NCBI RefSeq assembly: GCF_001573155.1
Contig: NZ_JRWG01000001.1
Coordinates: 310,001-374,000 of the forward strand
DNA: 64,000 nt
Origin: Aequorivita aquimaris
Lineage (GTDB): Bacteria; Bacteroidota; Bacteroidia; Flavobacteriales; Flavobacteriaceae
Direction: 5' to 3'
In this document: positions 5,767 through 61,164 of the stretch, piece by piece
Numbering within the stretch: position 1 is the stretch's first letter
Layout of the letters: each line of letters starts with the position of its first letter
Notes under the pieces: generated by a model
Seen by the model: the letters and a program-made list of their open reading frames with translations, nothing else
The model's database searches: none
Told to the model about the DNA's origin: nothing
Program-made: the position numbers and the translations under genes

Positions 5767-5809
5767 TGATATTTATCATTTTATATTAAATGCTTCAAAA
5801 GTACTTTTG
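5767..5809 (+). promoter_or_regulatory. Crp/Fnr-type box plus -7 element, hemN promoter
   Basis: The dyad TGATATTTATCA (5767-5778) is followed after exactly 23 bp by TACTTTTG (5802-5809), a perfect Bacteroidota TAnnTTTG -7 element. If transcription starts about five bases after the element, the dyad is centred near -41.5, the class II activator position. The identical dyad is found upstream of norC. The hemN ATG lies 19 bp further on. Confidence 0.75.
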
Positions 5810-7229: not shown

Positions 7230-7272
7230 TGACTTACGTCATATTTTACCGCAAACACAATCCTGACCTTTG
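7230..7272 (+). promoter_or_regulatory. Crp/Fnr-type box plus -7 element, porin-nirK promoter
   Basis: The dyad TGACTTACGTCA (7230-7241) is followed after exactly 23 bp by GACCTTTG (7265-7272), one base from TAnnTTTG. The ATG of the porin gene follows 26 bp later, at 7298. This placement shows that the in-frame codons before 7298 would lie upstream of the transcript start. Confidence 0.7.
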
Positions 7273-18321: not shown

Positions 18322-18338
18322 ACCTGAAAATTATGATT

Positions 18339-18381
18339 CAAAAATATTATTGCAAACGCCCTTAAAATATGACATTCGTCA
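18339..18381 (-). promoter_or_regulatory. Crp/Fnr-type box plus -7 element, cco operon promoter
   Basis: Read on the minus strand, TGACGAATGTCA (18381-18370) is followed after exactly 23 bp by TATTTTTG (18346-18339), a perfect TAnnTTTG element. The ATG of ccoS is 17 bp further on. The architecture equals that of the hemN promoter. Confidence 0.75.
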
Positions 18382-20821: not shown

Positions 20822-20864
20822 CAAAGGTTGCAAGAGATTTGGTTTCGAGAAATGACAATTATCA
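20822..20864 (-). promoter_or_regulatory. Crp/Fnr-type box plus -7 element, ccoI promoter
   Basis: On the minus strand TGATAATTGTCA (20864-20853) is followed after exactly 23 bp by AACCTTTG (20829-20822), one base from TAnnTTTG. The same -7 variant occurs in the CoA transferase promoter. ATG of ccoI lies 31 bp downstream. Confidence 0.68.
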
Positions 20865-23012: not shown

Positions 23013-23055
23013 CAAATTTCAGTATAAAATAACACCCAAAATATGACCTAAATCA
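23013..23055 (-). promoter_or_regulatory. Crp/Fnr-type box plus -7 element, ric promoter
   Basis: On the minus strand TGATTTAGGTCA (23055-23044) is followed after exactly 23 bp by GAAATTTG (23020-23013), one base from TAnnTTTG. The ATG at 22982 follows 30 bp later. Confidence 0.7.
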
Positions 23056-25782: not shown

Positions 25783-25825
25783 CAAAGGTTGGGAATCTTA
25801 TCTGCTTCTAAAATGATTTTAGTCA
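25783..25825 (-). promoter_or_regulatory. Crp/Fnr-type box plus -7 element, CoA transferase promoter
   Basis: On the minus strand TGACTAAAATCA (25825-25814) is followed after exactly 23 bp by AACCTTTG (25790-25783), one base from TAnnTTTG and equal to the ccoI element. The ATG at 25767 follows 15 bp downstream. Confidence 0.7.
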
Positions 25826-30830: not shown

Positions 30831-30873
30831 TAAAAATACCTTTTCACTGCTGTGCGAAATATGATATTTATCA
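30831..30873 (-). promoter_or_regulatory. Crp/Fnr-type box plus -7 element, norCB-nadAB promoter
   Basis: On the minus strand TGATAAATATCA (30873-30862) is followed after exactly 23 bp by TATTTTTA (30838-30831), one base from TAnnTTTG. The dyad is the same sequence as at hemN. The ATG at 30808 is 22 bp downstream. Confidence 0.7.
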
Positions 30874-41269: not shown

Positions 41270-41312
41270 CAAAATTAGCACGCAAGAGAGAGATATAATA
41301 TGATTTTTGTCA
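41270..41312 (-). promoter_or_regulatory. Crp/Fnr-type box plus -7 element, nos operon promoter
   Basis: On the minus strand TGACAAAAATCA (41312-41301) is followed after exactly 23 bp by TAATTTTG (41277-41270), a perfect TAnnTTTG. The ATG at 41245 is 24 bp downstream. Confidence 0.75.
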
Positions 41313-41410
41313 TATACGGGATAATTTAATCTCTTTTTTTTGCTTCGAAGTAAGCTATTAAAAAATCCTCTTAGCAGTACAAAGATTCTTGTACTCTACG
41401 GTTTAAAATA

Positions 41411-41453
41411 TGAGGAAAATCATTTTACATGTCACCCATAAAAATTAATTTTG
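41411..41453 (+). promoter_or_regulatory. Crp/Fnr-type box plus -7 element, universal stress gene promoter
   Basis: TGAGGAAAATCA (41411-41422), with one altered half-site, is followed after exactly 23 bp by TAATTTTG (41446-41453), a perfect TAnnTTTG. The ATG at 41470 is 16 bp downstream. The divergent nos box lies 98 bp upstream. Confidence 0.65.
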
Positions 41454-41469: not shown

Positions 41470-42297
41470 ATGAAAAATATACTTTTGCCCACTGATTTTT
41501 CGAAAAACTCAAAGAATGCAATTAAGTATGCGCTGAAGTTTTTTGAAGGCGAAAAGTGTACATTTCACGTTCTCAATTCGCAAAAACCTTCTGGGTATAT
41601 AACTGCCGATGTGCTTTACGGCGCTCCCGGCACATCGGTCTATGAAGGTATTTTGAACGACAATAAAAAGGAGCTTGAAAAATTGGTCCAATTTTGTAAA
41701 TCAATTTCTGAAGGAGAGGATTTCACTTTTATTCCTAAAATAGATTTTGACAATATCGTTGATGCTGTTAACCAAGCCGTAGCGCTAAACAATATTGAAT
41801 TAATACTGATGGGCTCTAACGGTGCCACAGGTGCTGCAGAAGTTATTTTCGGAAGTAACACCTTAAAAATTATACGAAACGTTGATTGTCCCGTTCTCAT
41901 AGTTCCCGAAGCCTATACATTTGAAAAAATTAATGCAATCTTGCTCTCGCTAAACTATCAATATGATGTAGCGAACAAATCGTTCAACATTATTTCTGAA
42001 ATACTAAAGAAAAACAATGCCTCGTTGAAAATTCTTGAAATTGAGGAAGAAGATATAGAACTATCCTCACAACGAAACCATACCGAGGAAGTTTTTAAAG
42101 AAATAGGTTTTGAACGTTATTCCATTAAAAATATTCCTGCCTCAATGGCCATCAATGCTTTTGAGCAGTTAATTCCCGTTCAACTTCACGCCTTGATTGT
42201 GGAGCGCAAAAGTTTTTTTGACCGCTTTATCTTTGGTTCAGAGACTTCAAAAATAAATTACGGTTCCCTTGTACCGCTTTTGGTACTTCATGAGTAG
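41470..42297 (+). CDS. Universal stress protein, tandem UspA domains
   Basis: The 275-residue protein has a first UspA domain starting NILLPTDFSKNSKNAI and the ATP-binding signature in MGSNGATGAAEVIFGSN (about residues 115-131). The second domain is degenerate. It is divergent from the nos operon and has its own Fnr-type promoter. Its stop codon directly abuts the stop of the convergent lipoprotein gene. It resembles the cluster at 53-58 kb (VLLPTDFSKNA-type start, LLVLHE end). Confidence 0.88.
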   Translation: MKNILLPTDFSKNSKNAIKYALKFFEGEKCTFHVLNSQKPSGYITADVLYGAPGTSVYEGILNDNKKELEKLVQFCKSISEGEDFTFIPKIDFDNIVDAVNQAVALNNIELILMGSNGATGAAEVIFGSNTLKIIRNVDCPVLIVPEAYTFEKINAILLSLNYQYDVANKSFNIISEILKKNNASLKILEIEEEDIELSSQRNHTEEVFKEIGFERYSIKNIPASMAINAFEQLIPVQLHALIVERKSFFDRFIFGSETSKINYGSLVPLLVLHE

Positions 42298-53550: not shown

Positions 53551-54402
53551 TTAGTTTCTGGTATCGTGGAGTGCTAGGATGGGTACTTTGGAGTGGACGC
53601 CGAGACTTTTAACCAACGGATTTGAAAAAACACTGCCAAAGAACCAGTGTTTTCTATTCACAAATGCTATCATCCCGCTATTTTGCTGGTCTGCGAAGGA
53701 CAGCACGCCCTCCTTTACGCCCTTATGTTCAAGCCAGTGGTAGGTATATTTTACTTCGCTGAAATGATTTTCCAATTCCTTCCGATTGTTCCTTTGCCTT
53801 TCCGAAAGGTCCTTCTCCTTGCCAATGTGAAGGATTTGGATTTCTGAATTTCCGAGCTGTGCAATCTTCACAAAGGTTTTCATTTCCCGCTTGTTAAAAT
53901 GGGTCTTAAAGTTGGTGGGAAAAACGATGCTACCTATCTTTTTATAGGAAACATTGGCGGGCACGGCAAGTACGGCACAGCCTCTGATGTTTTCCATTAC
54001 GTTTACGGAGTTTCGGCCGTAGGCTACCTTCGTATCATCTGTTATACCGCGGGTTCCCATAACGATAAGGTCTATTTTATCGCGCATTACCTTTTCTTCC
54101 AACAACTCGATAAGGGTTCCAAATTTGTGGTCGAAATAAATGGTATGTTTAGGATTGTCTGCCAATAAGCCCACCTTCTTTTTCAACCATTCCATTCTTT
54201 CGCCCGAAAGCCTTGCCGCCCTGTCATAATCAGCCGGTTCGGGTTCAGGAAACAATACGTTGCCCTTGGCCGAACGCGCTAAAAAATAGGAATGGAAAAT
54301 GTGAAACGTACAATCTTCCTCCGCAAAAAGCTCGAACGCATAAACAATGGCATTGAAGGCACTTTTTGAATAATCGGTAGGGATTAAAACTTGCTTTTGC
54401 AT
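53551..54402 (-). CDS. Universal stress protein, tandem UspA domains
   Basis: The 283-residue protein from ATG 54402 begins QVLIPTDYSKSAFNAIVYA. The first-domain ATP signature is MGTRGITDDTKVAYGRNS, where the final Ser/Thr of G-2x-G-9x-GS is Arg, so nucleotide binding may be altered. A second degenerate domain follows, with RKHWFFGSVFSNPLVKSLG near the end, nearly the same as in the next gene. It is the fourth of four tandem universal stress genes in one operon. Confidence 0.86.
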   Translation of the reverse strand: MQKQVLIPTDYSKSAFNAIVYAFELFAEEDCTFHIFHSYFLARSAKGNVLFPEPEPADYDRAARLSGERMEWLKKKVGLLADNPKHTIYFDHKFGTLIELLEEKVMRDKIDLIVMGTRGITDDTKVAYGRNSVNVMENIRGCAVLAVPANVSYKKIGSIVFPTNFKTHFNKREMKTFVKIAQLGNSEIQILHIGKEKDLSERQRNNRKELENHFSEVKYTYHWLEHKGVKEGVLSFADQQNSGMIAFVNRKHWFFGSVFSNPLVKSLGVHSKVPILALHDTRN

Positions 54403-54446
54403 AACCAACTTTTTTGTTTTGATTCACATTAAATTTTTATAAGGAC

Positions 54447-55298
54447 TCAATTTCTCAAATCGTGCATTGCCAACAACGGTACATTAGCGTGCTTTCCGAG
54501 TTCTTTGACCATAGGGTTGGAAAAAACACTCCCAAAGAAATTGTGCTTTTTGTTCACAATGGCAATCATCTCGCTCTGTCGGCTCTGTACAAAACAGCGC
54601 ACCCCGTCGTTTATGTCAACGTCGTAGAGCGTATGGTGGGTAAAACTGGCGGCTTCCAAAATTTTCTCCAGCAACACCTTATTTTCCTGCTGGGCTTTGG
54701 TCAAGCCTTTATTGTTCTGAATATGTAAGATACGGATTGGGGAATTGGTACAGCGCGAAATATCTACCAAAGTGGCCAGTTCCCTCTCTTTATAGTGCGT
54801 TCTAAAACTTGTGGGGAAGACAATTTCATTCGGGTCCTTGAACAACACATTTGAAGGAATGGCGAGTACCGGGCAATTCCTGATTTTTTCCATCGCATTT
54901 ACCGCATTGCTGCCCAAAATCACGGTCTTATTGTCCGTTTCGCCCTGGGTTCCCATAATTACCAATTCTATGTCCTGTTTTTCAACCGTTTTCTTCATTA
55001 CGTCGAAAAAGGAACCAAATTCGCTTAAATAATGAAAGCTGTGGCTGTCATTTTCTTCGTAAAAAGCCATTTGCACCTTTAGTTTCTCCATATTTTTCTC
55101 CGAAGCTTCCCGAACTTTTTGCAGGGCTTCTTCCGTAGGCTCGGGGCTCAAAAGGTTCTCTTTTGAATACCCGGAAAGATAATAGGTGTGCAGCAGAAAA
55201 AATTCCGCAGGTTCCCTTTTATAGAGCTCCATGGCATATTTTATGGCGTTCCAGGCGTTTCTTGAAAAATCTGTGGGTATCAATATTCGCTTTTTCAT
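54447..55298 (-). CDS. Universal stress protein, tandem UspA domains
   Basis: The 283-residue protein begins KKRILIPTDFSRNAWNAIKYA, with ATP signature MGTQGETDNKTVILGSNA complete (about residues 119-136). The C-terminal segment KKHNFFGSVFSNPMVKELG is close to that of the downstream gene, so the two are recent duplicates. Gaps are 12 bp from the upstream gene and 44 bp to the next start. Confidence 0.88.
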   Translation of the reverse strand: MKKRILIPTDFSRNAWNAIKYAMELYKREPAEFFLLHTYYLSGYSKENLLSPEPTEEALQKVREASEKNMEKLKVQMAFYEENDSHSFHYLSEFGSFFDVMKKTVEKQDIELVIMGTQGETDNKTVILGSNAVNAMEKIRNCPVLAIPSNVLFKDPNEIVFPTSFRTHYKERELATLVDISRCTNSPIRILHIQNNKGLTKAQQENKVLLEKILEAASFTHHTLYDVDINDGVRCFVQSRQSEMIAIVNKKHNFFGSVFSNPMVKELGKHANVPLLAMHDLRN

Positions 55299-55309
55299 CT
55301 TCTGAAATT

Positions 55310-56158
55310 TTAATTTTTAATAGGAATTACCAACGTTGGAACGTGAGTATGCTTCCCTACCCTACTTACAACAGGTTCCCTAAAAAGTTTCTTTAGGAAA
55401 GCGTGCTTGTGGTACACGAGGGCCAATAAATCCATATTCCGTCCATCAATAAAGTTATGAAGGGTTTTTGAGATATTATCCTTTTTCGGAATAAAATGGA
55501 ACTCGGTATCATATTCCGTAAGGTCATTTTTATAATGTTCCAGATTTTGCTGCTGCAGCACGTTCAAATCTCCTTCCGCACCTACGTGGACCACGTGCAA
55601 ATTTGAATTGTACTGTCGCACCAACCGAACGATGGGCCGCAGTTTTGAAAGTTGGTAAAAATCGTTAAAGTCCGTTGCAAACGCAATGTTTGTGGGGATT
55701 ACGTAATCCACTTCGCGCGGAACAATGAGCAACGGGCAACCTTCCAACGATTTGGTGATTTTTACCGTTGTGCTCCCCACGAGTACATCCTCGGCACCCG
55801 TGCGGCCCTTGCTGCCCATAACCACGAGGTCTATTCCTTCGGTGGAAACCAATTTATTGATGGTTTTTGACAGGGTTGCCGGCGTGGAAATCACTTCAAA
55901 TTTGTGTGCAACTTTGGAAGAATCCAGTTTTATTTGATGCACCAATTGCTGGCCGTCCTCATCAGATTGTCGATACAATTTTTCAATTATATTTTCAGAA
56001 CGGCCTATGTCTACACGGCTCGTTAGCTTCCCCACTTCTTCCCCAAAAGAATGGAGAATGGTTATTTGCAGTGCTTCATCGCTAAAAAGTTTTGTGGCAT
56101 AAAACAAGGCCGCATAGGCGTTTTTGGAGAAATCGGTTGGAACGAGGATTTTTTTCAT
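55310..56158 (-). CDS. Universal stress protein, tandem UspA domains
   Basis: The 282-residue protein from ATG 56158 begins KKILVPTDFSKNAYAALFYA and carries a complete ATP signature, MGSKGRTGAEDVLVGSTT (about residues 117-134). The second domain ends HKHAFLKKLFREPVVSRVG and PTLVIP. It is the second gene of the operon, 22 bp after the first, and less similar to its neighbours than they are to each other. Confidence 0.87.
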   Translation of the reverse strand: MKKILVPTDFSKNAYAALFYATKLFSDEALQITILHSFGEEVGKLTSRVDIGRSENIIEKLYRQSDEDGQQLVHQIKLDSSKVAHKFEVISTPATLSKTINKLVSTEGIDLVVMGSKGRTGAEDVLVGSTTVKITKSLEGCPLLIVPREVDYVIPTNIAFATDFNDFYQLSKLRPIVRLVRQYNSNLHVVHVGAEGDLNVLQQQNLEHYKNDLTEYDTEFHFIPKKDNISKTLHNFIDGRNMDLLALVYHKHAFLKKLFREPVVSRVGKHTHVPTLVIPIKN

Positions 56159-56180
56159 TGTCAATATGTATTTAAAAGGT

Positions 56181-57026
56181 TTATCTCGGTAAATTTTGAA
56201 GTACTAGAAAGGGGATGTCAATTTTCAACCCAATCTTTTCAATGGTTGACTGGTAAAGTATGTTTTCCAGATAGGAATGGCGCGTATTGACCATCACCAG
56301 CATATCTATGGGATTTTCAATTATGAAAGTGTTGATGGCTTTGGTAACATTTGTCCCGCCTTTTTGATGGAAATTTATTTGGTTGTCGCAGAAGGCCGCT
56401 TCCAAAAATTTCCTGTTATCCTGCTGTCGCAAGGAAAGGGTTGGAAATGTTGAAACGTAGAGAAAATCTACTTTGGTAGCGAAGCATTTTGCAATGGTGC
56501 TCACCAGTTTCAGTTCGCGGCGTTTGTAGGGCAACAAATAATCTGTAGGAAACAACAAGTTTTTAGGATGCACATCGCCATAAACGGCAGGAATGGCGAG
56601 CACGGGGCATTTCACATATTTTATTACCTGCAGCGTGTTGCTACCGAAGGTTATTTTTTTATCGGCGGTTTCACCTTTGGTGCCCATAACCACCACATCT
56701 ATATTCTCCTTCTCCACCCAATCGTTTACCGAATCCACCAACAGGCCAAATTCGGCAATGGTATGCAAAGTATGCTTTGGATTCGGGGAAAAGCTGAGAA
56801 TCTGTTTACGGGTTTCCTCAAGATTTTCCTTTGCTTTTTGAAGCGCTTTTTCCTGCAGTTCCTCAAAAACAGCATCGGCCAAGCGGGCCTTGTCTTCATA
56901 CACCGAATCGGAAAAAGCGTGGAGCAAATATATCTCGGTGGGGCCGTGCTTAAATAGCTCAGTAGCGTATTTAATGGCGTTCATTGCATTATCCGAAAAG
57001 TCTGTGGGAATCAATATTTTTCGCAT
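56181..57026 (-). CDS. Universal stress protein, tandem UspA domains, first of operon
   Basis: The 281-residue protein begins RKILIPTDFSDNAMNAIKYA with signature MGTKGETADKKITFGSNT (complete). ATG 57026 is chosen since the in-frame codons before it (to 57095) run through the regulatory dyad and -7 element. It heads the operon of four universal stress genes, the ATP-cone nuclease and the beta-CASP RNase. Confidence 0.88.
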   Translation of the reverse strand: MRKILIPTDFSDNAMNAIKYATELFKHGPTEIYLLHAFSDSVYEDKARLADAVFEELQEKALQKAKENLEETRKQILSFSPNPKHTLHTIAEFGLLVDSVNDWVEKENIDVVVMGTKGETADKKITFGSNTLQVIKYVKCPVLAIPAVYGDVHPKNLLFPTDYLLPYKRRELKLVSTIAKCFATKVDFLYVSTFPTLSLRQQDNRKFLEAAFCDNQINFHQKGGTNVTKAINTFIIENPIDMLVMVNTRHSYLENILYQSTIEKIGLKIDIPFLVLQNLPR

Positions 57027-57051
57027 GGCGGTTTGTTTTTGAATGATTACG

Positions 57052-57094
57052 TAAATATAACCATTACAGTACAGTAAAACTATGATAAATATCA
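57052..57094 (-). promoter_or_regulatory. Crp/Fnr-type box plus -7 element, universal-stress operon promoter
   Basis: On the minus strand TGATATTTATCA (57094-57083) is followed after exactly 23 bp by TATATTTA (57059-57052), one base from TAnnTTTG. The ATG at 57026 is 25 bp downstream. The dyad is the one also found at hemN and norC. Confidence 0.7.
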
Positions 57095-57168
57095 ATCAAC
57101 AGCCTGATTTTTAAGGAATCCTTAAGAGTGCGCAAGCCGTTTATTTCGTAATTTAAAATTAAAAAGCT

Positions 57169-57393
57169 ATGAAACTTTCCGCTATCACATATCTCGTACT
57201 AACAACATTCGTGCTCGTTACGGTCGCAATTTTTGCGGCTATGGATTTTCCGTTCGGGTGGGTATTTTATTTGACCGTTTTGGGCCAAGCGCTTTTAATC
57301 TTCTCGGTCTTTAAGGTTTTAAGAGACAGCTATACCACCGATAAAACCTTTAAGGATTTTTATGAAGACCATCCTATTGGCCAAGAGGAATGA
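57169..57393 (+). CDS. Small two-helix membrane protein
   Basis: The 74-residue protein has two hydrophobic helices (about residues 4-24, TYLVLTTFVLVTVAIFAAMD, and 29-49) and an acidic tail ending PIGQEE. I recognise no named family. It is divergent from the universal-stress operon and convergent with the next stress gene. No clear -7 element with a dyad was found for it. Confidence 0.65.
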   Translation: MKLSAITYLVLTTFVLVTVAIFAAMDFPFGWVFYLTVLGQALLIFSVFKVLRDSYTTDKTFKDFYEDHPIGQEE

Positions 57394-57428
57394 TTTGGTA
57401 TTCAGTATTTTGAATTTTGAATTTCAAC

Positions 57429-58268
57429 TCACTCGTGGAGCACCAAAAAAGGCACATTCACCGAATAGCTCACCGATTTTACGGCAGGCCGCAACAGTAA
57501 CCGCTGGATAAGGTTTAAGTTTTTTGCCACGATGGAAACAAGACTGATATCCCAAGTCTCCACAAAATCCTGTATGCCTATTTCCAAGTCTTTATTTTCC
57601 ACAAAATGGAAGCTGTGCTTTTTATCCTTGAAAAAGTAATGCAAAAACCCCTTGTTGTCGGTCTGTGCCGCGGTAAGCCCCGTATTTTGGGCTTTAATAT
57701 GAAGCACCCTCAGCGGCGAACGATGCAGATCCAACGTCTCTGAAAGTCTAGTGATTATTTTGTTACGATAAATGCAGTTGTAATCGGTTAAAAAGGCGAT
57801 GTTTTTAATGCCGTTAAACTTGGCGTTTTCGGGAATCACGAGAATGGGACATTTCACCTTGGTAATCACATCGCAGGTATTGCTGCCCATTTCCCCGCCA
57901 TTAATTTTAGTAGTTCCCTTGGTGCCCATCAAAATATAATCGATTTCCTTTTCAATTACATTTTTTCTAATGGCCTCTAGCAAGTTAAGGTTTTCGTGAA
58001 GGGGGAAAAAGCTATGGGCTGGGTTTTGGGAACGGATTTGGTATTTCCGTATTTCTTCCCGCAACGTGGCAGAAGTGCTTTGAACCGTCTGCATTTCAGT
58101 ATCAAAGTCAGAAAAAAGCTCCTGTTCCTCTTCCTTAGTACTTGTATGTGTATGCGAAACATGAAGGATATAAAAATTCACCGCAACATCGGAAAAATAT
58201 GCAAGTGCATACGCAATGGCGTTCTGTGCATTTTCTGAAAAATCCGTCGGGATTAGTATATTCATCAT
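57429..58268 (-). CDS. Universal stress protein, tandem UspA domains
   Basis: The 279-residue protein (start at one of two adjacent ATGs, 58268 or 58265) begins NILIPTDFSENAQNAIAYALAYF and has the signature MGTKGTTKINGGEMGSNT. The second domain is degenerate and ends FLVLHE, like the copy at 41470. It is a single gene with its own Fnr-type promoter. Confidence 0.88.
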   Translation of the reverse strand: MMNILIPTDFSENAQNAIAYALAYFSDVAVNFYILHVSHTHTSTKEEEQELFSDFDTEMQTVQSTSATLREEIRKYQIRSQNPAHSFFPLHENLNLLEAIRKNVIEKEIDYILMGTKGTTKINGGEMGSNTCDVITKVKCPILVIPENAKFNGIKNIAFLTDYNCIYRNKIITRLSETLDLHRSPLRVLHIKAQNTGLTAAQTDNKGFLHYFFKDKKHSFHFVENKDLEIGIQDFVETWDISLVSIVAKNLNLIQRLLLRPAVKSVSYSVNVPFLVLHE

Positions 58269-58287: not shown

Positions 58288-58330
58288 CAAAAATATCTTT
58301 ATGGGTCGGGACAGAAAATGATAAAAATCA
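58288..58330 (-). promoter_or_regulatory. Crp/Fnr-type box plus -7 element, universal stress gene promoter
   Basis: On the minus strand TGATTTTTATCA (58330-58319) is followed after exactly 23 bp by TATTTTTG (58295-58288), a perfect TAnnTTTG. The first ATG at 58268 is 19 bp downstream. Confidence 0.75.
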
Positions 58331-58356: not shown

Positions 58357-59409
58357 TCAATCTATATCGCGCAGACTTTCCAAATCTACAATGCGGATGT
58401 CGCGGCCCTCAATTTCAATGATGCCATCTTTCTTAAAATCTGAAAGGGTCCTGATAAGGCTTTCCGTAGCAATCCCGGCAGTAGTGGCGAGGTCGTTCCT
58501 TGAAATTCGGAGCGGCGCCTCAGGCTTTTTATCCATAATCTCCACAAATTGAAGAATGGTGCTCGCCGTCTTTTTCCTGACTGAACTGTAGGCCATTTTA
58601 ACCAATTGCTGCTTTATCTCGGAAAGGTTATCGGTCAAAAGATTCATCAATTCCAAGGAAACATCTTGACTTTTCTTGAGAATATCGCGCACATAGGTTT
58701 TTGAAATTCCCACAACCTCGGTTTCTTCCACGGCAGTGGCGGTCTCGTTATAGGGAATGTTATCGTCAAAGGAAGTGAAGCCTAAAAAGTCATCGGCTTT
58801 GTAGAGTCCCGTAATAAGTTCCTTTGCATTGGCATCCATCGTATGTGTTTTTACTACGCCTTTCAAAATTAGGAACATACTGTTTGAGTGGTCGCCTTTT
58901 CGGTAAATTGTTTCTCCCTTTTTATAGTTGGACACTTCGCCTTCATCACAAAAAAAGTTCTTTAGCTGGTTTAGGTTTTGGGGGTTTTCATCGTCCTCGG
59001 CATTGTCCTTTTCCTTATTGCTTTCGCGCATGGCCAGAATACTTGCCTTGGCCAACCTGCTTTCAATGGCGCTCAGCAATTCCTGCTCGTCAAAGGGTTT
59101 GGTGAGGTAATCGTCCGCGCCCATGTCCATGCCCTTGCGTATTTCCTTATGCTCCGTTTTTGCGGATAGAAAGATAAAGGGAATATGTTTCGTTTTTTCT
59201 TCCGAAGCAACACTCTCAAGCACACCGTAGCCATCAATTTCCGGCATCATTATGTCGCAAATAATAATGTTCGGGTTTTCGCTTTTAGCCTTTTGAATGC
59301 CAATTTTGCCGTTTGGCGCCGTAAAAACCTTGTATCCGGAAAGCTCCAAAAGTTCGGCGGTGTTTTCTCTTAATGCAGTGTCGTCTTCAATAAGAAGTAT
59401 TGTCTTCAT
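58357..59409 (-). CDS. Response regulator: receiver fused to Crp/Fnr-type output
   Basis: The 350-residue regulator has a receiver domain (residues 1-120; acidic pair ED9-10, phosphorylation site Asp52 in CDIMMPEIDG, Lys104 in LTKPF). A linker to about 145 and a cyclic-nucleotide-type beta-roll (150-260) follow, and then a Crp helix-turn-helix (300-335). The recognition helix has Glu316 and Arg320 spaced as Glu209 and Arg213 of FNR; Ser212 of FNR is Ile here. Only two Cys are present (51 and 154), so an FNR-type Fe-S cluster is excluded. It starts 1 bp after the kinase stop. It is the likely activator of the TGAY-N4-RTCA promoters; that link is inference. Confidence 0.9.
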   Translation of the reverse strand: MKTILLIEDDTALRENTAELLELSGYKVFTAPNGKIGIQKAKSENPNIIICDIMMPEIDGYGVLESVASEEKTKHIPFIFLSAKTEHKEIRKGMDMGADDYLTKPFDEQELLSAIESRLAKASILAMRESNKEKDNAEDDENPQNLNQLKNFFCDEGEVSNYKKGETIYRKGDHSNSMFLILKGVVKTHTMDANAKELITGLYKADDFLGFTSFDDNIPYNETATAVEETEVVGISKTYVRDILKKSQDVSLELMNLLTDNLSEIKQQLVKMAYSSVRKKTASTILQFVEIMDKKPEAPLRISRNDLATTAGIATESLIRTLSDFKKDGIIEIEGRDIRIVDLESLRDID

Positions 59410-59410
59410 A

Positions 59411-60646
59411 TTATTCGGTAGTGTTTTTGTTGGGGAAAGTAATGGTAAACGTGCTGCCCTTGCCCTCCTCGCTTTCAAAGATAATGGTGCCGCCGAGACT
59501 TTCCAAGTGGCTTTTCACGATGTTCAGGCCAATGCCGGTGCCTTGGTCCAGCAACGCATTTTCAGCCCTAAAATATCTGTTGAAAATATATTTCTGCTCC
59601 TTTTCGGGAATGCCCATGCCCTCATCACTAATCTTTATGGTGAGCGCCTCCTTTTCCTTTATAACTTCCACATCAATCAAAGTGTGCGCAGGCGAATATT
59701 TTATGGCGTTGTTTATAAGATTGGTAAGCGATAGCTCAAGGATTTTTTCATCAAAATTAACCGAGATATCATCAATATTCTGCGGATAATTTATTCGCTG
59801 GCCTTCCTTTAAGAGCATGTTTGCGTTGTAGATTACCTCGTTCACCACTTTGCTCAGCGGGAAGGTATCAAATTTATAAGTGGCCTTCCCTGATTCCAGA
59901 CGTTCAATGGAAAGGAAGTCATTCAAAATATTATTCAAGTATTTAACTTTACTCTGGATGGTTTTTAAGTGCTTTTCACGCTTGTCCTGTTGATCGGTTT
60001 CGGTGTATTTTCCCGCAAGGGTAGCCGAGGTAAGAATGCCGCTCAACGGCGTTTTAAATTCGTGGGAAACCAAGGATAGGAATTTCGTTTTCAATTCGTT
60101 CAGCTCCCGCTCCTTGCGCAGTGATTCCAGAATTTTGTATTCCGCCTCCTTGCGTTTGGCCACTTCTTCCTTTAGTTCTTTGATGGTCTGTTTCAGTTCC
60201 TTTGTGCGGGCCTCAACTTTTTGCTCCAATTGCATGTTGAGCTCAATAATTTCCCGCTCCTGGCCTTTGCGCACGGAAATATCGGTTACCAGCGCCATCA
60301 CGTATTTGCTCCCGTAAATCTCAAACGGGTTAAGCCCTGCCTCCACGGGAAAAACGCTGCCATCTTTGCGCCGTCCGTACAGGTCGCGCCCGTGGCCCAT
60401 TTGGCGCGGGTCGCTTTTTTCCAGGTATTCTTCCACTTGTTGGGTATGGCTGTGCCTGTATTCCCGCGGAATCAACAGATTGATATTCTCGCCCAAAAGC
60501 TCTTTGGGGCCATAGCCAAACATGCGGTCGGCAGCCTCATTGGAGGTTACTATTTCCTGCTTTTCGTTAACGATGACTATGCCTTCGGAAATGGCTTCGG
60601 AAAGAATCCTAAAAATATTTCCCTTTTTTTCCTCAAATACTTTCAC
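59411..60646 (-). CDS. PAS-domain histidine kinase, FixL-like
   Basis: The 411-residue soluble kinase has a PAS domain (about 8-125), a coiled coil (128-185), HisKA with phosphorylated His195 in SHEFKTPL, and a HATPase domain (N box NLINNAIKYSP, G boxes DEGMGIPE and GTGIGL). The PAS domain contains YRHSH (His65, His67), aligned with the RHEH of FixL whose second His binds haem, and GRDLYGRRKDGS, in which Arg87 aligns with the FixL signalling Arg. These residues occur also in some non-haem PAS domains, so haem is a hypothesis. No membrane helix is present. The start codon is GTG 60646. Confidence 0.9.
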   Translation of the reverse strand: MKVFEEKKGNIFRILSEAISEGIVIVNEKQEIVTSNEAADRMFGYGPKELLGENINLLIPREYRHSHTQQVEEYLEKSDPRQMGHGRDLYGRRKDGSVFPVEAGLNPFEIYGSKYVMALVTDISVRKGQEREIIELNMQLEQKVEARTKELKQTIKELKEEVAKRKEAEYKILESLRKERELNELKTKFLSLVSHEFKTPLSGILTSATLAGKYTETDQQDKREKHLKTIQSKVKYLNNILNDFLSIERLESGKATYKFDTFPLSKVVNEVIYNANMLLKEGQRINYPQNIDDISVNFDEKILELSLTNLINNAIKYSPAHTLIDVEVIKEKEALTIKISDEGMGIPEKEQKYIFNRYFRAENALLDQGTGIGLNIVKSHLESLGGTIIFESEEGKGSTFTITFPNKNTTE

Positions 60647-60684: not shown

Positions 60685-60727
60685 TGATTTATATCATAGA
60701 TTAATACAGCTTGGTCTTCTATTTTTA
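60685..60727 (+). promoter_or_regulatory. Crp/Fnr-type box plus -7 element, TerB-like gene promoter
   Basis: TGATTTATATCA (60685-60696) is followed after exactly 23 bp by TATTTTTA (60720-60727), one base from TAnnTTTG. ATG 60760 follows 32 bp on. The box also lies 38 bp upstream of the divergent kinase gene, where it could give autoregulation. Confidence 0.65.
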
Positions 60728-60759: not shown

Positions 60760-61164
60760 ATGGGAACCATGGAGAAGCCACAACTGCTTTTTTACCAAAA
60801 AATGGGCGAGCTGTTTTATGCCATAGCCGCCGCCGACAAAGTGGTACGGAAGACTGAATACGATATGTTGAAGAAAATCGTTTCCGAGCAATGGAAAGAC
60901 CTCGACGATTATGAAGACCCCTTCCATACCGATGCCGCCTACCAAATAGAAGTGGTCTTTGACTGGTTTGATTATGAACAATTGGACGCCAACGACTGCT
61001 TTTACAGCTTTGCCGATTATAAAAAGGACAATCCGCAACTCTTTACCGACGAGCGGAAAAAACTGATCTGGAAAACGGCCAACGCCATTGCGGGCTCGTT
61101 CGCTGGGAAGAACAAAAGCGAATTGATCATGCTCGCCAAATTGAAAAACTTGCTGAGCCAGTAA
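60760..61164 (+). CDS. Small TerB-like helical protein
   Basis: The 134-residue protein is all-helical. It starts PQLLFYQKMGELFYAIAAADKVVRKTE, which recalls the TerB/DjlA-type fold with its acidic DKVV...E motif. It continues with helical pairs to LIMLAKLKNLLSQ. I cannot assign a function; some TerB-like proteins bind metal. Its promoter belongs to the dyad set and is shared with the divergent kinase intergenic region, which suggests it takes part in the same response. Confidence 0.7.
   Translation: MGTMEKPQLLFYQKMGELFYAIAAADKVVRKTEYDMLKKIVSEQWKDLDDYEDPFHTDAAYQIEVVFDWFDYEQLDANDCFYSFADYKKDNPQLFTDERKKLIWKTANAIAGSFAGKNKSELIMLAKLKNLLSQ

Follow-up and report, generated by a model that had tools for sequence, protein, structure and literature searches.

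A PAS histidine kinase and a receiver-Crp/Fnr fusion regulator in Aequorivita aquimaris: a candidate condensed FixL-FixJ-FixK-like system

Introduction

The FixL-FixJ-FixK2 system of rhizobia comprises a soluble haem-PAS kinase, a phosphorelay and a Crp/Fnr protein that acts on an FNR-type dyad, with cbb3 oxidase and denitrification genes among its targets. In the hFixL-FxkR-FixK system of Rhizobium leguminosarum, FxkR, which is not a FixJ homologue, binds the K-box and induces fixK, and FixK acts on the anaerobox TTGAT-N4-ATCAA (PMC7888657). Two other described proteins bear on the locus presented here. DosP (EcDOS) has a comparable PAS domain, and bacterial FNR (5cvr) is represented in Flavobacteriaceae by a stand-alone protein with an N-terminal cysteine cluster, referred to below as Cys-FNR.

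The window analysed is a stretch of 64,000 nucleotides from the marine bacterium Aequorivita aquimaris (Flavobacteriaceae; contig NZ_JRWG01000001.1). To judge from its sequence, it has a soluble haem-PAS-type kinase, a phosphorelay, a Crp/Fnr protein on an FNR-type dyad and cbb3 and denitrification targets, as does FixL-FixJ-FixK2. The phylum and the promoter type differ, however, and a single protein takes the place of both FixJ and FixK, with a Crp helix-turn-helix (HTH) rather than a FixJ-type HTH as its output; because of this merger, there is no step in which FixJ activates transcription of fixK. The locus also resembles hFixL-FxkR-FixK in its FixL variant, its two-component step and its FixK/anaerobox-type site, but where the FixJ and FxkR systems induce fixK first (PMC7888657), in this locus the Crp/Fnr protein and the response regulator are one and the same. 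The initial annotation of this DNA knew of no characterised system of this form, and a literature search, in which most subscription papers were beyond reach, likewise found no account of such a receiver-Crp/Fnr fusion. The system is a well-supported candidate for an apparently undescribed variant of FixL-type oxygen signalling. We consider it probable that it is a low-oxygen two-component system, in which a haem-PAS kinase phosphorylates the fusion and the phosphorylated fusion acts at dyad promoters, standing in for the iron-sulphur (Fe-S) FNR.

The kinase and its PAS domain

59411..60646, minus strand: soluble PAS histidine kinase, 411 aa from a GTG start, with PAS, HisKA and HATPase_c domains
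60275..60598, minus strand: PAS domain (residues 17-124 of the kinase), with FixL and DosP haem PAS domains as top PDB matches
60446..60448, minus strand: codon of His67, aligned with the haem-ligating (proximal) His of FixL and DosP
60392..60394, minus strand: codon of His85, where DosP has its distal ligand Met95
60386..60388, minus strand: codon of Arg87, aligned with FixL Arg220 and DosP Arg97
59426..60091, minus strand: HisKA and HATPase_c transmitter, with the phospho-acceptor His195 at 60062-60064

The coordinates and domain anatomy initially assigned to the kinase and the fusion, and the one-base gap between them, were borne out by domain matches and an open reading frame check: the kinase stop codon (59411-59413) and the regulator ATG (59407-59409) are separated only by base 59410. 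No membrane segment was seen in the kinase, and its catalytic motifs (H-box His195, N box and G box) are intact. The two genes adjoin in all fusion-bearing members of the genus; in G007 the locus ends at the contig end, and in G022 the kinase gene contains a stop. This stop (locus L010) is in frame in the linker before HisKA (KER*LNEL), with the regulator intact, and reflects either a pseudogene or a sequencing error.

Thirteen PDB sequences match the PAS domain at E<=1e-8, and every one is FixL or DosP. Foldseek, run with an AlphaFold model of the domain that is of low certainty at the pocket (residues 61-84), also places FixL and EcDOS/DosP at the top and LOV domains lower. The domain appears to have the FixL arrangement of a haem-ligating His (His67) and a distal Arg (Arg87), and the same proximal His and distal Arg would be common to DosP. 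In DosP, however, a c-di-GMP phosphodiesterase, the distal ligand is Met95, whereas the window protein has His85 at that position and a kinase transmitter. In a 13-member PAS alignment, His67, Gly84, Gly86 and Arg87 are invariant. Among partner kinases of the His-PAS type, His67 is invariant except in one distant relative (L131), and Arg87 is nearly so (Leu in L019, Gln in L104 and L122). The haem-pocket assignment of the initial annotation thus stands for His67 and, with these few exceptions, for Arg87. It does not stand for His65, which varies among relatives and was rejected as a haem residue for its lack of conservation. His85 is invariant within the genus and found in only some relatives beyond it; since a number of these have K, Q, I, E, V or Y instead, it was rejected as an essential ligand. 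As a sixth ligand, it could change the chemistry.

A His67-type His and PAS motif are also carried by many annotated PAS kinases that may or may not bind haem. Against the curated FixL equivalog NF041777, the window kinase scores 101.7 bits, below the 850-bit cut-off. On its residues and matches the kinase probably contains haem, and we infer that its PAS domain binds haem with O2 as the ligand and that the kinase is active at low O2. In homologous pairs from Mucilaginibacter, Arcticibacter, Sphingobacterium and a Flavobacterium MAG, the PAS comes close to canonical FixL, and for the Mucilaginibacter pair the best PDB match of the kinase PAS is FixL (8js5, 1.4e-30). Outside Flavobacteriaceae, the kinase PAS often looks like nearly canonical FixL, and because these pairs carry it, the FixL analogy is stronger than the initial annotation could know.

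It may be that the regulator works as proposed and that the PAS domain senses NO or redox state through its haem, or binds another cofactor or a small molecule. NO-related genes (norCB, ric and nirK) are abundant in the region, and with His85 where DosP has its distal ligand, the domain could tend towards six-coordinate sensing of redox state or NO. Some relatives lack Arg87, the O2-stabilising residue in FixL, and the sensors at the kinase position are exchangeable, LOV domains alternating with His-PAS domains. However, the closest solved relatives of the domain are O2 sensors, the homologous pairs of other families have a nearly canonical FixL pocket, and hemN and cbb3 oxidase are typical low-O2 targets. 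Sensing of a signal other than O2 is accordingly rather unlikely.

The receiver-Crp/Fnr fusion regulator

58357..59409, minus strand: fusion response regulator (receiver-Crp/Fnr) of 350 aa, starting at the ATG 59407-59409, with Response_reg, cNMP_binding and HTH_Crp_2 domains
59062..59400, minus strand: receiver domain, with the phospho-acceptor Asp52 at 59254-59256
58672..58929, minus strand: Crp-type beta-roll (cNMP_binding fold), without the FNR cysteine cluster
58363..58566, minus strand: Crp-type HTH, with Glu316 (58462-58464) and Arg320 (58450-58452), both invariant

A longer open reading frame with a TTG start was dismissed as an artefact, and a 350-residue match at 100% identity is found in A. 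todarodis. The receiver catalytic residues D9, D10, D52, S82 and K104 are present and conserved; with this intact receiver (D/D/S/K) beside a kinase gene, the fusion qualifies as a two-component response regulator. FixJ proteins, in comparison, join a receiver to a LuxR/FixJ-type HTH, and the output here is cNMP_binding plus HTH_Crp_2. The beta-roll matches cNMP_binding, but the phosphate-binding consensus GE..L...R.A expected of a cAMP-sensing CRP was not seen by inspection.

Two features of FNR had been singled out in the initial annotation, and both observations were correct. The FNR-like Glu316 and Arg320 are present and invariant, and the FNR-type cysteine cluster is absent, the fusion having just two scattered cysteines (Cys51 and Cys154). 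Its fold and residues would make the protein FNR-like, with a Crp fold and a Glu/Arg recognition helix suited to TGA half-sites. This helix (GIATESLIRTLSDF) is nearly the same as that of Cys-FNR (GTATESCIRLLSDF), with the common pattern ATES.IR.LSDF. The two regulators would also have the dyad and the 23-bp promoter in common, and they fall in adjoining clades. They differ in that Cys-FNR stands alone with its N-terminal cysteine cluster, whereas the fusion lacks the cluster and would receive its signal via the receiver. Phosphotransfer from the kinase, phosphorylation-driven DNA binding and class II activation are predicted for this arrangement.

Promoter signature and predicted regulon

The promoter signature consists of TGA(Y)N4(R)TCA, exactly 23 bp and TAnnTTTG. 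When the window was searched for TGAN6TCA and then for NAnnTTTR at 10-40 bp, the 23-bp combination was found 15 times, against 0.17 expected from first-order Markov shuffles, with no more than 3 cases at any other spacing. Fourteen of the 15 precede a correctly oriented gene. The whole genome has 22 matches to the TGAYN4RTCA form and none of the reversed-pattern control, and the 23-bp peak recurs in independent Flavobacteriaceae loci and is absent from unrelated loci. With TAnnTTTG taken to cover roughly -12 to -5, the centre of the dyad would fall near -41.5, where CRP/FNR activators sit at class II promoters.

Genes in the window include hemN, nirK, a bifunctional ccoNO, nosZ and ric, together with a norC-like cytochrome c, ccoP, universal stress protein (usp) genes and a COX1-family norB-like subunit; a ccoS-like open reading frame lies upstream of ccoN. 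Promoters with the signature are as follows.

5767..5809, plus strand: dyad-N23-TACTTTTG of hemN
7230..7272, plus strand: alginate-export porin - nirK operon
18339..18381, minus strand: ccoS-ccoNO-ccoP cluster (ccoS-like open reading frame start at 18322)
20822..20864, minus strand: heavy-metal P-type ATPase gene (ccoI-like)
23013..23055, minus strand: ric (FeS_repair_RIC)
25783..25825, minus strand: CoA-transferase family gene
30831..30873, minus strand: norCB (cytochrome c and COX1-family subunit)
41270..41312, minus strand: cytochrome c - nosZ cluster (second dyad at 41380-41422)
41411..41453, plus strand: usp gene at 41470
57052..57094, minus strand: dyad-N23-TATATTTA of the usp gene at 56181-57026
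58288..58330, minus strand: TGATTTTTATCA-N23-TATTTTTG, before the usp gene that follows the fusion

These sites support the prediction that cbb3, denitrification and haem genes form a coherent regulon with a single type of dyad. The box at 58288-58330 is kept in all fusion-bearing members of the genus and has the clearest geometry at the fusion. Outside the window, sites precede by inspection an HPF-like gene, a cation P-type ATPase gene and a ferredoxin reductase-like gene, among others; the HPF-like target suggests that dormancy is part of the regulon.

Five usp genes lie in a row beside the pair (53551-58268), at least two of them with a 23-bp promoter, and two further usp genes occur elsewhere in the window. 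A dyad promoter at G000:C1:375074-375116 (minus strand) precedes a 99-aa gene resembling a ribosome hibernation factor.

The box between the kinase and the divergent gene

60685..60727, plus strand: promoter with dyad at 60685-60696, between the kinase and a 134-aa gene, its 23-bp geometry facing the latter

A regulon box had initially been placed in the promoter region of the kinase-regulator pair. The box at 60685-60696 is indeed conserved, being present in every genus member that has the stretch, but its 23-bp geometry faces the divergent 134-aa gene. A class II role at the kinase promoter was rejected for this box, since the spacing is 23 only in that direction. On the kinase-facing side, TACTTTTG stands at 25 bp in 22 matches among 26 relatives' loci; in the window, the -7 element on this side is degenerate (TATTTTAG at 26 bp). 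Autoregulation of the pair through this box is possible. In L011-L034, the 25-bp spacing to TACTTTTG is followed by a very short leader ahead of the kinase start codon. The 134-aa protein gene (60760-61164, plus strand), divergent from the kinase, has a dyad promoter that is conserved in the genus. A Pfam search of its product returned zero matches, and a TerB identity was rejected on this basis.

Which protein reads the dyads

Strict sites occur in 27 of the 28 Aequorivita genomes (5-17 each, with 0-1 per strand in reversed controls). The one genome without them, counted irrespective of target-gene presence, is G026, and no other genome of the genus lacks the fusion. At the order level, the strict promoter is found in 199 of 298 genomes and a fusion match in just 47, and the inspected site-bearing genomes without the fusion have a stand-alone Cys-rich FNR (MSKCEQCIVR...). 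Because these relatives use the dyads with Cys-FNR, the dyads do not identify the fusion, and their use as a marker of the fusion alone was rejected on the order counts. The initial annotation had named, as evidence against its reading, dyads that persist in fusion-less relatives with another Crp/Fnr protein, and at the order level such dyads do occur, alongside Cys-FNR. The association survives in a narrower form, in that dyads and the fusion go together among genomes lacking Cys-FNR.

Cys-FNR is absent from 13 of 74 genomes in the family sample. Eleven of these have a close fusion and 3-10 sites each; of the remaining two, one has only a distant fusion and the other neither regulator, with 1 site apiece. 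When the 13 were pooled with 26 genus members and G026, at least three sites were present in 37/37 genomes with a close fusion and 0-1 in 3/3 without, the group without either regulator comprising three genomes only. The 26 genus members were counted as FNR-less, Crp inventories having been checked in G000, G002, G012, G015 and G026 only. The Fisher value of 1e-4 for this table overstates independence, because the genomes are related by descent.

Another Crp/Fnr protein might read the dyads, leaving the pair to control something else or only the adjacent usp genes. Dyads do occur in genomes without the fusion, and one such protein, FNR-B (C3:224726-225310), stands alone, has no Cys and carries FNR-like recognition residues (helix VETVIR); it is present in 24 of 28 genus members and missing from the site-less G026. 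However, G002, a single contig, lacks FNR-B and yet has 9 strict sites, on which ground FNR-B was rejected as a necessary binder. Most of the remaining Crp families of G002 also occur in G026, which has zero sites, and the fusion helix is nearly identical to that of the Cys-FNR that co-occurs with dyads in relatives. A different stand-alone Crp protein at C1:464817 was also rejected, as its helix has no Glu and its family occurs in G026 too. Reading by a protein other than the fusion is quite improbable. Because Cys-FNR-less genomes have at least three sites only with a close fusion, and because G002 has its sites without FNR-B, the fusion is the best candidate for the dyad binder in Aequorivita.

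Distribution and evolution

Adjacent kinase-fusion pairs were found across Bacteroidota; by its genes, the system is widespread in the phylum and not peculiar to the window locus. A FastTree phylogeny of Crp domains places the fusions from across Bacteroidota in a single clade that adjoins the Cys-FNR group, and the Crp half therefore looks related to Bacteroidota FNR. The description of the locus as a condensed FixL-FixJ-FixK, put forward in the initial annotation, holds for the FixL/DosP-like PAS and for the kinase beside a receiver-Crp/Fnr fusion; it falls short in that there is no FixJ-type output and that the Crp half adjoins Cys-FNR. Second fusion copies, 40-52% identical to that of the window, occur at G014:C104:20119-21174, G017:C1:2746834-2747883 and G034:C5:222335-223363.

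In the partner kinases of five family members (L107, L110, L111, L118 and L120), a LOV domain replaces the haem-type PAS. These kinases have the motif NCRFLQ, L111 has LOV photoreceptors as its top PDB matches, and all occur in genomes that retain Cys-FNR. The His-PAS kinase is retained in 11/11 Cys-FNR-less fusion genomes of the order sample, whereas the 13 that keep Cys-FNR have 8 His-PAS and 5 LOV kinases. The Fisher test on this table (p = 0.03) is suggestive only of a tie between LOV kinases and Cys-FNR retention.

Proposed mechanism

In the proposed low-oxygen system, the kinase PAS would bind haem via His67, and loss of the haem ligand (O2) would switch the kinase on. The kinase would autophosphorylate at His195 and pass the phosphate to Asp52 of the fusion, which would then dimerise as a Crp/Fnr protein and bind TGA(C/T)N4(A/G)TCA dyads whose centres lie 29 bp upstream of where the TAnnTTTG -7 element begins. 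There, it would activate, in class II fashion, the genes for cbb3 oxidase, denitrification, haem, NO repair and stress proteins. Two proteins would thus combine the jobs of FixL, FixJ and FixK, and the fusion, whose recognition helix is almost unchanged and whose promoters would be the same, would substitute for the Fe-S FNR used by most of the family.

Some response regulators bind DNA unphosphorylated, and FNR-B co-occurs with the fusion in most genus members, but that the fusion is phosphorylation-independent or repressing, or that the pair only tunes promoters shared with a second regulator, is highly improbable given the conserved receiver and transmitter catalytic residues, the consistent adjacency of the two genes and a dyad position compatible with class II activation. 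Most likely, the locus encodes a FixL-FixJ-FixK-like system in condensed form, which has taken the place of Fe-S FNR.

Implications

Somewhat more tentatively, and with the odds slightly against it, several Flavobacteriaceae lineages may have replaced Fe-S FNR with the haem-PAS/fusion system as the master switch of anaerobic respiration, with the DNA site and the geometry of the promoters unchanged. Where sister lineages have kept FNR, the module may have been rewired to a LOV photosensor, so that light and oxygen feed the same promoters. To our knowledge, the oxygen regulation of marine Bacteroidota has been little studied. If the proposed reading is true, a second phylum would have its own FixL-FixJ-FixK cascade, reduced to two proteins, and a global regulator would have exchanged an iron-sulphur cluster for a kinase as its input with the DNA code unchanged. 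For denitrification and N2O reduction (nosZ) in marine Bacteroidota, the locus would also provide a regulon and a promoter rule that can be tested.
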